Positions 9,327 to 61,474 of a DNA stretch of 64,000 nt are shown here, in pieces. The stretch covers positions 62,001 to 126,000 of the forward strand of contig NZ_ASGZ01000028.1 of assembly GCF_000495475.1 (NCBI RefSeq), in the 5' to 3' direction. Made by a program: the position numbers and the translations under genes. Origin of the DNA: Candidatus Halobonum tyrrellensis G22 (GTDB lineage Archaea > Halobacteriota > Halobacteria > Halobacteriales > Haloferacaceae). Under the pieces are notes generated by a model. The model had not been told where the DNA came from, searched no databases, and saw only the letters and a list, made by a program, of their open reading frames with translations. The first letter of the stretch is position 1; every line of letters starts with the position of its first letter.

Positions 9327-9484
9327 GGGCGGTTCGTCTGCACCATCGCCGCGGTTTCGCCACGGACTCGTTCGCTCCGTTCAGTCGCTCACTCGTCCTC
9401 GCTTTGCTCTACTTCTATGGGCGGCTCGGCAACCTCGCCGCCGTTTGCCGAGGACTCGTTCGCTCGCTCCCTACGGTCGCTCGC
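9327..9484 (-). repeat. 3'-end-associated GC-rich repeat, copy A (two units)
   Basis: The repeat begins at the base after the stop codon of the aldo/keto reductase gene and reads in the same sense. Unit 1 is 9419-9484. It shares two core pieces with the other copies, ACGGCGGCGAGGT and GCCGAGCCGCCCA, though a short stretch between them is missing. Unit 2 (9327-9418) is a diverged version, with a nearly repeated flank (the ACTCGTTCGCTC stretch occurs at 9366 and again at 9454). The CTCGGC/GCCGAG and GGCGGC/GCCGCC pairs allow hairpins in the transcript. No coding signal is visible. The remainder of the gap up to the methyltransferase promoter shows nothing else clear. Confidence 0.7.
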
Positions 9485-10495
9485 TCACTCGTCCTCGCCT
9501 TCCTCGCTTTCCTCTCGCGCTTCGGTGATCCGCTCGCGCTGGTCGTCCGAGAGTTCGATCTCCACCGCGCCGAGGTTGTCCTCCAACTGCTCGACCGTCC
9601 GCGCGCCGACGATGGGTACGCAGGTGTAGTCGGGCCGCTCGATCAGCCACCGGAGCGCGACCTGTGCGGGCGTCGCGTCGAGTTCCTCGGCGGTCTCCCT
9701 GATGGCGTCGAGCACGTCCCAGCTCCGCTCGTTGACGTACGCGTCCTGGAAGTACTCCACGAGGTCCGCACGCGACCCCTCCGGACCCACGGCTTGGCCG
9801 TCGTCGCCGCGCTCGTACTTCCCGGTGAGGAACCCGCCCGCCAGCGGCGAGTACGGACAGACCGCCAGGTCCTGGTCGGCACACACGTCGAGGTAGTCCT
9901 CGGTCTCGCGGTACGCCGCGTGGAACATCGGCTGGGTCACCTCGAACCGTTCGAGGTCCTCGACGTCGCTCTCCCACAGCATCCGCGTGAGCTGCCACGC
10001 CGCCATCGACGACGCGCCGAGGTAGCTCACGCGGCCGTCCTCGACCAACCCGTCGAGCGTTCGCAGCGTCTCCTCGACGGGCGTCTCCTCGTCGAACCGG
10101 TGGATGTAGTAGACGTCGAGGTGGTCGGTGCCGAGTCGGTCGAGCGTCCCCTCGATCTGACGGCGGATGTGGGTGCGCGACAGCCCCGACCCGTTCGGGT
10201 TGTCGGGGTCGAACCCGAAGTACACCTTCGAGGCGAGCACGTAGTCCGCGCGGTCCCGGCCCGCGAGCCAGTCGCCGATGTACTCCTCGGCGGTGCCGTT
10301 CGGGTCGCCGTACACGTTCGCGGTGTCGATGAAGTTGCCGCCCGCGTCGGCGAACGCGTCGAGCAACTCGTGGGCGTCGTCTCGCCCGGTCTCGACGACG
10401 CCGCCCGACTTCATCCCGAAACGCCACGTGCCGAAACAGAGGCTCGACACCTTCGTTCCGGTCGACCCCAGCCGCCGGTAGTCCATCTCTGCCAT
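9485..10495 (-). CDS. Aldo/keto reductase
   Basis: A 336-aa member of the NADP(H)-dependent AKR superfamily (TIM barrel) that reduces carbonyl compounds. Seen in order: MDYRRLGSTGTKVSSLCFG at the start, GGNFIDTANVYG (catalytic Asp and Tyr), VLASKVYFG (catalytic Lys), YYIHRFDEE (catalytic His region), YLGASSM, and VALRWLIERPDYTCVPIVGAR, which includes the cofactor-binding loop. The substrate is unknown. A poly-T TATA element about 29 nt upstream supports the ATG at 10493-10495. A second, related AKR is encoded at 49779-50756, and the 3' side of each lies near a copy of the same repeat family. Confidence 0.92.
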   Translation of the reverse strand: MAEMDYRRLGSTGTKVSSLCFGTWRFGMKSGGVVETGRDDAHELLDAFADAGGNFIDTANVYGDPNGTAEEYIGDWLAGRDRADYVLASKVYFGFDPDNPNGSGLSRTHIRRQIEGTLDRLGTDHLDVYYIHRFDEETPVEETLRTLDGLVEDGRVSYLGASSMAAWQLTRMLWESDVEDLERFEVTQPMFHAAYRETEDYLDVCADQDLAVCPYSPLAGGFLTGKYERGDDGQAVGPEGSRADLVEYFQDAYVNERSWDVLDAIRETAEELDATPAQVALRWLIERPDYTCVPIVGARTVEQLEDNLGAVEIELSDDQRERITEAREESEEGEDE

Positions 10496-49344: not shown

Positions 49345-49497
49345 GGGTGCACGGCTCGCGCCGCGGTTCGTGACCGCCGTCCTTCCGAGGCCTCACTCGC
49401 TTCGCTCTCGAATTCGCTCTTTCGGTGGGCGGCTCGGCCCGCAGACCTCGCCGCCGTGCTCCGAGGCCTCACTCGCTCCGCTCGTTCGGCCTCGCTC
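49345..49497 (-). repeat. 3'-end-associated GC-rich repeat, copy B (two units)
   Basis: The repeat begins at the base after the stop codon of the zinc-finger gene at 49498 and reads in the same sense. Unit 1 (49427-49497) carries the core: positions 49426-49458 are identical, on the opposite strand, to 55305-55337 in copy C over 33 nt. Unit 2 (49345-49426) is a diverged second copy 82 bp away, with the flank CCGAGGCCTCACTCGCT at 49385 and again at 49461. The remainder of the gap 49152-49344 holds the promoter of the 76-aa protein and no gene. Confidence 0.7.
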
Positions 49498-52224: not shown

Positions 52225-54834
52225 CTACCGGAACCGTCCGAGCAGGCGGTACGCCTCGTCGGGCGAGTAACGGCGGAACAGCAGGCTGTTCGTCAGCACC
52301 GACACCGACGACACCGCCATCGCCGCGGCCGCGAACGACGGCCGGAGCAGTCCGAGCGACGCCAGCGGGATCATCGCGGTGTTGTAGCCGAGCGCCCAAA
52401 ACAGGTTCTGGCGCACCTTCGCGAGCGTCCCCGCGGAGACGTTCATCGCCCGCACCACGTCGGTCGGGTCGTCGCGCATCAGCGTCACGTCCGCCGCCTC
52501 GATGGCGACGTCCGTGCCGCTGCCGATGGCGACGCCGACCGTCGCGGCCGCCAGCGCCGGCGCGTCGTTGACGCCGTCGCCGACCATCATCACGCTCCCC
52601 TCGCTCTCCAACTCCTCGACGACCGCCGACTTCTCGTCGGGGAGTACGCCCGCGCGGACGTTCGACTCGTCGATACCAACCTCGCGGGCGACGGCGCGGG
52701 CGGTCCGCTCGTTGTCGCCGGTCAGCATCCACACCGACACCCCGCGGTCGCGGAGCGCCGCGACCGCCTCCTTCGAACTGGGTTTCACCTCGTCGGCGAC
52801 CCCGAGGACGCCGAGGAGTTCGCCGTCGCGCGCCACCAGCATCGCGGTCTTCCCCTCCGACTCCCACGCCTCCATCGTCTCGCGGGCGGGTTCGGGGTCG
52901 ACCCCCTCCTCCTCCAGGAGGTCGGGCTTGCCGACCACGACCGTGCCGTGGACGGTCCGCGCGCGGACGCCCTTCCCGGTCACGCTCTGGAGCACGTCGG
53001 GTTCCGTCACCTCGACACCCCGCTCGCGCGCGCCGGCGACCACCGCCTGCGCGATGGGGTGGTCGCTGCCCGCCTCGGCGCTCGCGGCGACTGCGAGCAG
53101 GCGCTCGTCGGTCACGCGCTCCCCGCCGCTCTCGTCGGTGGCGCCCGCCGCGTCGGGTCCGTCCGCGTCGGCCGGGACCGCGCCGTCGGTCGCGGGCGTG
53201 ACGACCCGCGCGTCGGTGAGCGTCATCTCGCCTTCGGTGAGCGTCCCGGTCTTGTCGAAGACGACGGCGTCGACGCTCTCGACGGTTTCGAGCACGTCGC
53301 CCCGCCGGAACAGGATCCCGTTGCGCGCGCCGATGGTGGTGCCGACCATCGTCGCCGCGGGCGTCGCCAGCCCCAGCGCGCAGGGACACGCGATCAGGAC
53401 CGCGGAGGCGAACACGACGACGCCGAACTCGAAGGCGCCGACGCTCGCCGGGCCGCCGCCGACCAGTCCCCACAGCGGCAGCCCCGAGACGAAGCCGGCG
53501 AGCGCCTCGGGGAACGCGTACCACACCGTCCCCCACAGCAGGGCGTTGGCGATGACCGCGGGCACGAAGTACGCCGACACGCGGTCGGCGACCCGCTGGA
53601 TCTCCGGCTGGCTGCTCTGCGCCTCCTTCACCGTCTGGACGATCCGCTGGATCGCCGTCTCCTCGCCCACCTTCGTCGCCTCGACGTAGAGGACGCCGTC
53701 CTGGTTCACCGTCGAGCCGACCACCTCGTCGCCCTCGCGTTTGTCGACCGGTACCGACTCGCCCGTGACGTTCGACTCGTCGACCGCCGACTCCCCGCCG
53801 ACCACGACGCCGTCGGTCGGCACCGTCTCGCCGGGGTACACCTTCATGGTGTCGCCCTCCTCGACCGCTTCGAGTTCCACGTCGCGTTCGTCTCCGTACC
53901 CCTCGCGGCCGTCGGCGGGCGTGACGAGGTGGGCCTCGTCGGCTTCGAGTTCGAGCAGGCTTCGGATCGCGTCCCCCGCTTGCGCCTTCGAGCGGGCTTC
54001 GAGGTAGTTGCCGAGCGTGATGAACGTCAGGATGAGCGCGGCCGACTCGAAGTAGAGTCCGCCGACGACCAGCCCCGCCATCACCGCCAGCGAGTAGACG
54101 TACGCGGTGGTCGACCCCAACGCGATCAGTACGTCCATGTTGGCGGTGCGGTTGCGGACGAGCGCCGTGTAGCTGTTCTCGTAGAACTCGCGGCCCAAGA
54201 GGACCTGCACGGGCGTCGCGAGCGCGAGCGCCCACCACTCGCGGCCGACGCCGAGGGGAGTGTCGGGCACCGGCAGGCCGACCAACTCGCCCATCATCAA
54301 CAGCGACAGCGGGACGGACAGCAGCACGCCGACCGCGAGCAGGCGGCGCTGGTGGCGGAGTTCGGCGTCCCGCGCCGACTCGCGGGCTTCCTCGTCCGCC
54401 TCGGCGTCCCCCGACTCCCGGACCGGCGTGTAGCCGGCGTCCTCGATGGCGTCGTACACCGCCCCGCGGTCGGTCCCGGGTGCGTAGCGGACGAGCGCCT
54501 CGTCGGTGGCGAAGTTGGCGTCCACCGCGACGACGCCCGGCACGCCGCCGACCGCCTCCTCGACGGTCCCCGAGCAGTTCGCACACGTCATGTCCGTGAC
54601 GGTGACCGTCGTCGACTCCGTCACCGGGTCGTAGCCGGCGTCCTCGATGGCGTCGTATATCCCGCCCAGACCGACCGTCTCGGGGTCGTACGCGACGGTC
54701 CCCTCGTCGGTGGCGTAGTTGACGTCCACCTCCCGGACACCGTCGAGCGAACCGACTCGCTCCTCGATCGTCTGTGAACAGTTCGCACAGCTCATCCCGC
54801 GTATCTCGACCGTCGTCCGGCGCGGGTCGCTCAT
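52225..54834 (-). CDS. copA: Copper-translocating P-type ATPase
   Basis: The protein is about 869 aa from ATG at 54834 (an in-frame ATG at 54861 gives 9 more). Two heavy-metal-associated domains lead: [13 protein letters not shown] and [14 protein letters not shown], each M-x-C-x2-C. Eight membrane helices follow, with the metal site [14 protein letters not shown] (C-P-C). The soluble core shows [22 protein letters not shown] (phosphorylated Asp), SDHPIAQAV (His of the N domain) and [15 protein letters not shown]. This set is the P1B-type Cu(I) exporter. The CopZ-type chaperone gene is divergent, with the two starts about 240 bp apart. Confidence 0.95.
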
Positions 54835-55072: not shown

Positions 55073-55273
55073 GTGAGTCAGACGCTCTCCGTCCACGGGA
55101 TGAGTTGTGCCGACTGCGAGGCGACCGTGACCGACGCGCTCGAAGGCGTCGACGGCGTGCGCGACGCCAGCGCGGACCGCGAAAGCGAGACGGCGACCGT
55201 CGAGGGCGACGCCGACACGCTCGACCTCATCGCGGCCGTCGAGGACGCGGGCTACGAGGCCGACTCGGCGTAA
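55073..55273 (+). CDS. copZ: Heavy-metal-associated domain protein (CopZ-like copper chaperone)
   Basis: 66 aa from GTG at 55073. It is a single HMA domain starting [25 protein letters not shown], with the Cu-binding C-x2-C in MSCADC, and ends [26 protein letters not shown]. The protein should carry Cu(I) to CopA. An ATG at 55046 would add nine residues (MSRSRLPLR), but the TATA-like GTAACCGTAAC at about 55031-55041 sits too close to it, so the later GTG is preferred. A repeat array begins at the base after the stop. Confidence 0.85.
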
Positions 55274-55595
55274 GCGAGGCGCGACCGCAGGGAGCGCCTC
55301 GGCACACGGCGGCGAGGTCTGCGGGCCGAGCCGCCCAGAGAGTGTGACCGAGCACCTCGGTCGAACCACCCGGAGCATACGAGCGAGCGCCCTGGTCGAA
55401 TCACCCAGAGAACGCGACCGCAGGGAGCGCCTCGGCACACGGCGGCGAGGTCCGAAGGGCCGAGCCGCCCGGAGCATGCGACCGATCGCCGTGGTCGAAT
55501 CGCCCGGAGGATGCGACCGAGCGCCTCGAAACGACCGCGAGGTCTGCGGGCCGAGCCGCCCGGAGGTGTGACCGAGCGCCGTGGTCGAACCGTCC
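55274..55595 (+). repeat. 3'-end-associated repeat, copy C: seven abutting units in two size classes
   Basis: Immediately after the copZ stop come seven units without gaps: long (55274-55336, 63 nt), short (55337-55371, 35), short (55372-55406, 35), long (55407-55470, 64), short (55471-55505, 35), long (55506-55561, 56) and short (55562-55595, 34). Every unit begins near a GGAG- or AGAG-type sequence and ends with a CACCC, CGCCC or similar block. A long unit is essentially a short unit with an extra stretch of about 28 nt inside it. 55281-55319 and 55414-55452 are identical over 39 nt. The units are not multiples of three, so this is not a protein repeat. Between 55596 and 55650 only the intergenic end of the next gene follows. 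Confidence 0.75.
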
Positions 55596-55650
55596 ACACA
55601 AACCGATCCGCGACCCGGGTTCTCCCGTTCTTTTGCCGACGAACCCGACG

Positions 55651-56271
55651 CTACCGTCCCATTGCGTAGAACTCGTCGTTGGGCCGCCAGTCGGCGAACG
55701 TCGCCAGCCGGTTGCTCAGGTTGAAGAACGCCGCGACCGAGCCGATGTCCCACACCTCCGACTCGCTGTACCCCGCCTCGTACAGCAGGTCGAGGTCGGC
55801 GGTCGTCACCGCGTCCGGCTCCTCGGTCAACGTCACCGCCACCTCTAGCATCGCCAACCGCTCGTCGCTCACGTCCGCCGAGCGGTAGTTCGATATCAGC
55901 TGGTCGGCCAACTGCGGGTCCTTCGCGTAGACGCGCGCGAGCGCGCCGTGGGCGACGTTACAGTAGAGACAGTGGTTCCGCCCCGACACCGCGACCACGA
56001 TCATCTCCACCTCCTCGCGGTCGAGGTCCGTCTCCTCGACGAGCGCGTCGTGGTAGGCGACGAACGCCCGGAAGTGGCTCGGCTTGTACGCGAGCGCGGC
56101 GAACACGTTGGGCGTAAAGCCCGCGCGCTCGGTCTCGTCGGCGATACGCTCGCGCAGGTCCGCGGGCAGGTCGTCGTAGTCGGGCACCGGAAACCGCCGC
56201 TGTGCGTCGGCGTCGAGTTCCGGGGTCGGGCCGTCCGCCGCGCCGTCGGGGTCGTCGTGTTCGTCGCTCAC
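55651..56271 (-). CDS. Peroxidase-related/AhpD-like (carboxymuconolactone decarboxylase) protein
   Basis: The protein is 206 aa. GRNHCLYCNVAHG has the C-x2-C redox pair with following His that is typical of AhpD-like peroxidase-related enzymes, and VALLEV-type helices surround it (ERLAMLEVAVTLTEEPDAVTT, YSESEVWDIGSVAAFFNLSNRLATF). An acidic N-terminal extension of about 25 residues precedes it. The expected role is alkylhydroperoxide or thiol-dependent redox chemistry. The GTG start has AACTTAAC (minus GTTAAGTT) 23-30 nt upstream. Confidence 0.9.
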   Translation of the reverse strand: MSDEHDDPDGAADGPTPELDADAQRRFPVPDYDDLPADLRERIADETERAGFTPNVFAALAYKPSHFRAFVAYHDALVEETDLDREEVEMIVVAVSGRNHCLYCNVAHGALARVYAKDPQLADQLISNYRSADVSDERLAMLEVAVTLTEEPDAVTTADLDLLYEAGYSESEVWDIGSVAAFFNLSNRLATFADWRPNDEFYAMGR

Positions 56272-61280: not shown

Positions 61281-61474
61281 ATCGGGGGAAATCCCCGCGC
61301 GTACATCAAGTCGGTGGTCTCGCAGAGCGTCTGCCGGGTGAGCGACGCGAACGAGGCGGACGGCACGACGGCGGCGCGGCCCGAGGCCGCGCCGCCCACC
61401 GAGAGTGCGTCCCCGGGACGAGCGACCGGCGGGACCGAGTCGAGCGTCGAGCAGACGAGCGGCCGGCGGCCGGG

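Follow-up and report, generated by a model that had tools for sequence, protein, structure and literature searches.

The tandem array that directly follows the copZ-like gene in the 64,000-nt stretch of Candidatus Halobonum tyrrellensis G22 analysed here (the window) raises the question of what its units are, how they came to have two discrete lengths, and whether they belong to this locus at all. Cut at GACCG, the array consists of seven abutting units between 55283 and 55604, of 63, 35, 35, 64, 35, 55 and 35 nt (Table 1). The preliminary description thus had the first five lengths and the absence of gaps right, while the last two (given as 56 and 34 nt) needed correction and its end at 55595 fell about 9 nt short. 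The natural left edge lies at 55275 and not at 55281, the CGAGGCGC arm of the first hairpin beginning two bases past the copZ stop codon (55271-55273), and the repeat that the preliminary description reported as 39 nt (55281-55319 and 55414-55452) extends to 40 nt (55280-55319 and 55413-55452). Tandem Repeats Finder returned periods of 134 and 99 nt for the region, and a long-short-short block of 133-134 nt is seen twice in part.

Table 1. Features of the copZ locus and other places in the window carrying the same hairpins (positions are those of the window)
Feature	Position	Strand	Basis and remarks
A+B module 3' of an aldo/keto reductase-like gene	9418-9497	-	Ladder search and covariance model; gene by homology to aldo/keto reductase; A 9449-9497, four rungs; B 9418-9444
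A+B module	49426-49494	-	Ladder search and covariance model; A 49462-49494, two rungs; B 49426-49457
copA-like P-type ATPase gene, divergent from copZ	52225-54834	-	Pfam E1-E2_ATPase, Hydrolase, HMA; synteny
copZ-like copper chaperone gene, 66 aa, HMA domain	55073-55273	+	Pfam HMA E=1.1e-17; gene call
Hairpin A, long unit 1	55275-55301	+	Ladder grammar search; fold
Long unit 1, 63 nt	55283-55345	+	Cut at GACCG
Hairpin B, long unit 1	55306-55337	+	Covariance model, 54.5 bits; fold
Short unit S1, 35 nt	55346-55380	+	Fold and alignment; perfect 7-bp hairpin GACCGAG/CTCGGTC
Short unit S2, 35 nt, degenerate	55381-55415	+	Unit alignment
Long unit 2, 64 nt	55416-55479	+	Fold; B hairpin 55439-55471, model 49 bits
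Short unit S3, 35 nt	55480-55514	+	25/35 identities to long unit 2, one 29-nt gap
Long unit 3, 55 nt, degenerate	55515-55569	+	Decayed B 55531-55562, model 34.3 bits
Short unit S4, 35 nt, final unit	55570-55604	+	Unit alignment
CMD-family protein gene, convergent with copZ	55651-56271	-	Pfam CMD E=8.6e-9
B hairpin, weaker, with GC/GC replacing GA/GA	61368-61398	+	Covariance model, 32.6 bits

Long units 1 and 2 align with the short units at 20-25 identities out of 35 and with a single gap of 28-29 nt, which exceeds the maximum of the shuffled controls (means 12.6-13.4, maxima 19-23 identities) in most pairs, though not in all. The two length classes are therefore related through one inner stretch of about 28 nt, as had been proposed. 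This stretch corresponds approximately to the 3' arm of one hairpin (A) plus the 5' arm of a second (B), and from the alignment the short unit appears to be a fusion of hairpins A and B and not the product of losing one arm. Of the earlier suggestion (loss or stepwise insertion of a hairpin arm in place of slippage) the involvement of hairpins and the rejection of simple short-unit slippage hold, while single-arm loss does not and insertion is not needed. Since A+B is the form found at other loci, the long unit is most likely ancestral and the short unit a deletion product in which the beginning of A is joined to the last part of B, although the direction of length change, like the tandem amplification at copZ, is something we infer. 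Folding the units one by one, a check that had been proposed, gave clean folds for A and B of long unit 1, B of long unit 2 and S1; the array is otherwise partly decayed, and in long unit 2 the left arm of A is gone, such that only B folds as such. A coding repeat was considered and rejected, because a codon-usage gene caller leaves the interval from copZ to the CMD gene empty, which confirms that the units lie outside any coding frame. Unlike in a CRISPR array, the units abut without spacers and are diverged, and neither the window nor seven module loci gave an Rfam match at gathering score.

The long unit is in fact a copy of a dispersed module of two hairpins in fixed order, A then B, both of which combine tandem G·A mismatches with short paired rungs. 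Hairpin A has a stem of about 6-10 bp and varying sequence, followed by GA/GA, at least one 2-bp rung (several rungs being split by GA/GA) and a triloop that is often GNA, with GCGNAGC or CCGNAGG as the core in many cases; the resulting ladder is predicted to alternate 2-bp rungs with tandem sheared G·A pairs under a GNA triloop cap. Hairpin B has a near-fixed GGCGGC/GCCGCC stem, GA/GA, a GG/CC-type rung and a variable loop. At copZ, hairpin A of long unit 1 carries an 8-bp stem (CGAGGCGC/GCGCCTCG), tandem GA/GA, a CC/GG rung and a GCA triloop, and folds as RNA at -19.0 kcal/mol compared to -16.5 for the opposite strand, while its hairpin B reads GGCGGC - GA - GGTC - loop - GGCC - GA - GCCGCC. 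A ladder grammar search of the window found four hairpins in three modules, versus two in ten dinucleotide shuffles together, and a covariance model of B added the fourth, weaker place, 88 nt from an ileS-like start codon and thereby of the promoter-edge class described below. Predicted folds are more stable for the GA-rich strand than for its complement in 93 of 112 modules when taken as RNA and in 86 of 112 when taken as DNA, which makes a single strand the likely working form of the module.

The array is not peculiar to copZ, since its long unit occurs at many other loci. Using the array as a blastn query, more copies were found in the host genome and, above all, in a single genus, Halobaculum. 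The covariance model of B gives 15 matches in the host genome, 5-40 in each of 11 Halobaculum genomes (H. litoreum, H. gomorrense and H. saliterrae included) and no more than one in each of the 159 other genomes searched from the family. Tandem module arrays also exist in one of the Halobaculum genomes (G065; 6 x 78, 4 x 73 and 3 x 69 nt). Six of the 11 module loci in the host genome lie on the contig of the window, which makes up 5.6% of the genome (binomial P ~1e-5, for a contig picked after the data were seen). In an unbiased 400-kb sample of the host genome only five ladders were found, four of them inside genes, which is near background, so that beyond the loci listed this genome has few members of the family; in the Halobaculum genome G067 there are 12 ladders per 400 kb, 11 of which are intergenic. 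Searches of viral contigs and phages gave no match, and among plasmids the only matches were to hairpin A, 30 nt in length, in Halomarina and Salinigranum. A genome-wide pattern scan returned Halobaculum, one Halobacteriales MAG and scattered single matches in GC-rich bacteria, which are taken as chance. A count of the GAGCGNAGCGAG pattern over 117 genomes was discarded, since the reversed pattern used as a control (GAGCGANGCGAG) also qualifies as a ladder. Another genus has a separate tandem array (G015:C2:638232-638674), in which an A-like hairpin, matched by hairpin A, recurs seven times at a spacing of exactly 69 nt.

Several observations show that the fold of the module is conserved. In ladders of two and three rungs, the rungs located by the GA frame alone are complementary in 51 of 78 cases (shuffled mean 21.6, maximum 32) and, in a second set, in 30 of 36 (mean 10, maximum 15). 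Hairpin B has a covariation score of 0.094 versus 0.029 when shuffled, a value reached by none of 500 shuffles and by none of the slid controls, with the proviso that the module sequences are related and the covariation counts are not independent events. Covariation on simple A loops was dropped, the anchor being often out of register. Two genes were traced through 20 genomes, and at both, most Halobaculum species have the module and others lack it; for one of them it is present in the host genome too. Wherever the module occurs at these genes, it starts no more than about 2 nt from the stop codon, and its paired stems differ entirely. In two species B occurs as a fully paired AGCGG/CCGCT variant at a gene where others have CGAGG/CCGAG. 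At a 75-codon gene the stem of A is, depending on the species, CGCGGTTC, CGTCGCC, CGCGGTC or CGAGGCC, in all cases paired and within about 2 nt of the stop codon. Because stem A changes at orthologous genes and yet still pairs, it is the fold, and not the sequence, that is kept in the module, and such rewriting of a whole stem at one gene appears to be the strongest single argument for it. Behind one gene ending in ERYS (L314, G069) several perfect hairpins in a row, unrelated to it in sequence, stand in place of the module. A tandem repeat made by slippage, with perfect stems arising through quasi-palindrome correction in the absence of selection, would explain why the array units are unequal and partly decayed. 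Template correction should, however, also erase the GA/GA mismatches, which persist while the rungs covary, and modules remain at the same genes across species, so that this neutral origin, already disfavoured, is very improbable.

The gene order copA, copZ, CMD is the same in Halobaculum and in a further genus (g17), but the gap between copZ and the CMD gene is 377 nt in the window versus 32-96 nt in nine relatives. None of the 11 relatives compared has a module at this junction, which means that it arrived or arose in the lineage of the window. In G031 and G068 copZ is separated from the CMD gene by an unrelated insert, and two Halobaculum genomes (loci L042 and L050) carry an AT-rich insert of about 0.9 kb where the window has the array. 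A single A+B module would thus have arrived just past the copZ stop codon, would then have been amplified in tandem, and some copies would have lost the 28-29 nt between hairpins A and B, giving the 35-nt class. In this identity and origin of module and array we have considerable confidence.

What the module does may be approached from where it sits. Of the 88 module clusters, nearly all of which are intergenic, 60 stand behind a gene and share its orientation (sense clusters), and 25 are directed away from the start of one; another two fall within predicted genes, and the last could not be assigned. Genes were called here by a simple codon-usage model trained on the window and not taken from annotation. 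Compared to random placement within the same gaps (2000 trials), B starts 30-56 nt past the stop codon in 37 of the 60 sense clusters (7.7 expected, maximum 16), and its distance to the start codon is 75-100 nt in 11 of the 25 others (2.7, maximum 9). With one representative per ortholog group this becomes 21.7 of 33 versus 4.0 for the stop class and 8.2 of 17 versus 1.8 for the promoter class. At both kinds of edge hairpin A always faces the gene, and in the promoter class it often ends, by eye, beside a TATA-like sequence. The stem type depends on the class as well, CGAG being the form seen at stops and CGCGG the one seen at promoters (Fisher P=3e-6, orthologs not collapsed). Such placement at both edges of transcription units, with A towards the gene and a stem type that depends on the edge, would suit a boundary element acting at the level of DNA (a site for a protein or a topoisomerase, or a hairpin that can be extruded, like the REP topological insulators). 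The GA/GA ladder exists on one strand only, though, the one that folds better, and a duplex protein site needs no strand-specific fold, which leaves this reading improbable.

The position of the sense clusters, 3' of a gene, would also suit an intrinsic transcription terminator consisting of a hairpin and a U-tract, and in Haloferax volcanii hairpins are found upstream of transcript 3' ends, one of which was shown to terminate (PMC7237163). A T run of at least 4 nt within 80 nt, however, follows only one of 60 sense clusters, the figure for gene ends of one Halobaculum genome being 40 of 388, which argues against a standard terminator and makes this explanation less probable still than the boundary element. 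The likeness to Haloferax volcanii is thus that of a hairpin near a transcript 3' end in a haloarchaeon; that study deals with hairpins and T-stretch motifs close to 3' ends, and repeats are not mentioned in its text.

The A+B family resembles, and is probably close in style to, the REP and the haloarchaeal PATE/SMR repeats, while a literature search that covered sources outside subscription journals returned no description of the family itself. Like REPs (of which archaeal ones are described as well; PMC3733652, PMC12306157) and BIMEs, the module is short, palindromic, intergenic, lineage-specific, present in tens of copies, located near 3' ends and sometimes grouped in tandem, but it differs from them in its GA-ladder structure and in having two unlike hairpins in fixed order and not in alternating orientation. 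By eye, no REP tag (GTAG or CGTC) is present in the flanks of the aligned B copies, the only hairpin inspected for it. GTAG REPs often supply a stop codon (PMC3733652); at five module loci (L176, L230, L204, L185 and L005) the stop codon apparently lies inside the module, which seems to supply the last residues of the protein. With PATEs, to which the comparison is by published description and not by sequence, the module shares its haloarchaeal host, the lack of a transposase, its palindromes, core deletions that leave fused ends, and an insertion at one point of a palindrome, while it differs in being tied to gene edges. This insertion, element C, is about 54 nt long, with GTTCAC/GTGAAC ends and two inner covarying hairpins. 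It was seen at nine loci (L006, L083, L146, L154, L172, L177, L189, L194 and L225), the first of which is on contig C60 of the host genome, where it directly precedes the B copy at 1637. All 13 copies of element C found occupy the identical point of hairpin B, and no target duplication is seen (most loci searched had been chosen for holding B). It looks like a repeat targeting a repeat, comparable to SMR-A, which inserts into PATE palindromes in Haloquadratum walsbyi (PMC3119063) and is likewise small, with inverted ends and entry into a palindrome without target duplication, albeit at about 110 bp.

These likenesses bear on a serious rival, namely that the module is a mobile repeat without its own transposase, its hairpins being recognised in trans by a single-strand-specific transposase, as for REP/RAYT or for PATEs with IS605-type elements, and that gene edges merely mark harmless insertion sites. 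Species differing in the presence of the module at the same gene, the empty copZ site of relatives, the entry of element C into B in the manner of SMR-A, and loops of the DNA-minihairpin type are all in keeping with mobility. On the other hand, no link to a RAYT or Y1 transposase was found: PF01797 has no match in five of the 11 Halobaculum genomes (G063, G064, G065, G070 and G071), including two of the copy-richest (G065 and G071, which are only 85% and 93% complete), ten Y1 (IS605-type tnpA) loci have no A or B hairpin at their ends, and A abuts the gene edge far more tightly than random insertion would give. Mobility of this kind consequently seems unlikely, serious as it is.

The best explanation would thus be that of a REP-like intergenic module, confined to one lineage, whose two strand-specific hairpins are kept for their single-strand fold, and which arrived at copZ, was amplified and partly deleted, and most likely acts at mRNA 3' ends; to this reading as a whole we assign a probability of about 0.6. 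For modules behind stop codons it is the GA-rich strand that is present in the mRNA, which favours a role at the 3' end, where two stable hairpins would limit 3' decay or read-through. Judged by itself, from position and predicted folds, this RNA role falls somewhat short of even odds. It is countered by the 25 of 85 clusters with the opposite orientation, directed away from a promoter, in which the mRNA strand is not the GA strand. The GNA triloop with two G-C pairs is, moreover, an extraordinarily stable DNA minihairpin (PMC4686876), and the GCGNAGC or CCGNAGG core of many A hairpins, which recalls d(GCGNAGC) but here sits on top of a longer ladder made up of 2-bp rungs and GA/GA mismatches, is a candidate single-strand DNA form and could favour a role in single-stranded DNA. 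A DNA role would also be compatible with the promoter class and with this minihairpin loop. It is also conceivable, if rather doubtful, that the module represents a class of its own among archaeal gene-edge elements, in which selection acts on the single-strand fold of a GA-ladder hairpin pair at both ends of transcription units, with its sequence rewritten and its place kept across species.

Whichever applies, the family offers a testable case for the question whether intergenic hairpin repeats in archaea are selfish DNA or do work at mRNA ends. The presence of the module in some Halobaculum species and its absence from others at the same genes provides natural pairs with and without it, and the strand-specific GA ladder predicts precisely which strand must fold.
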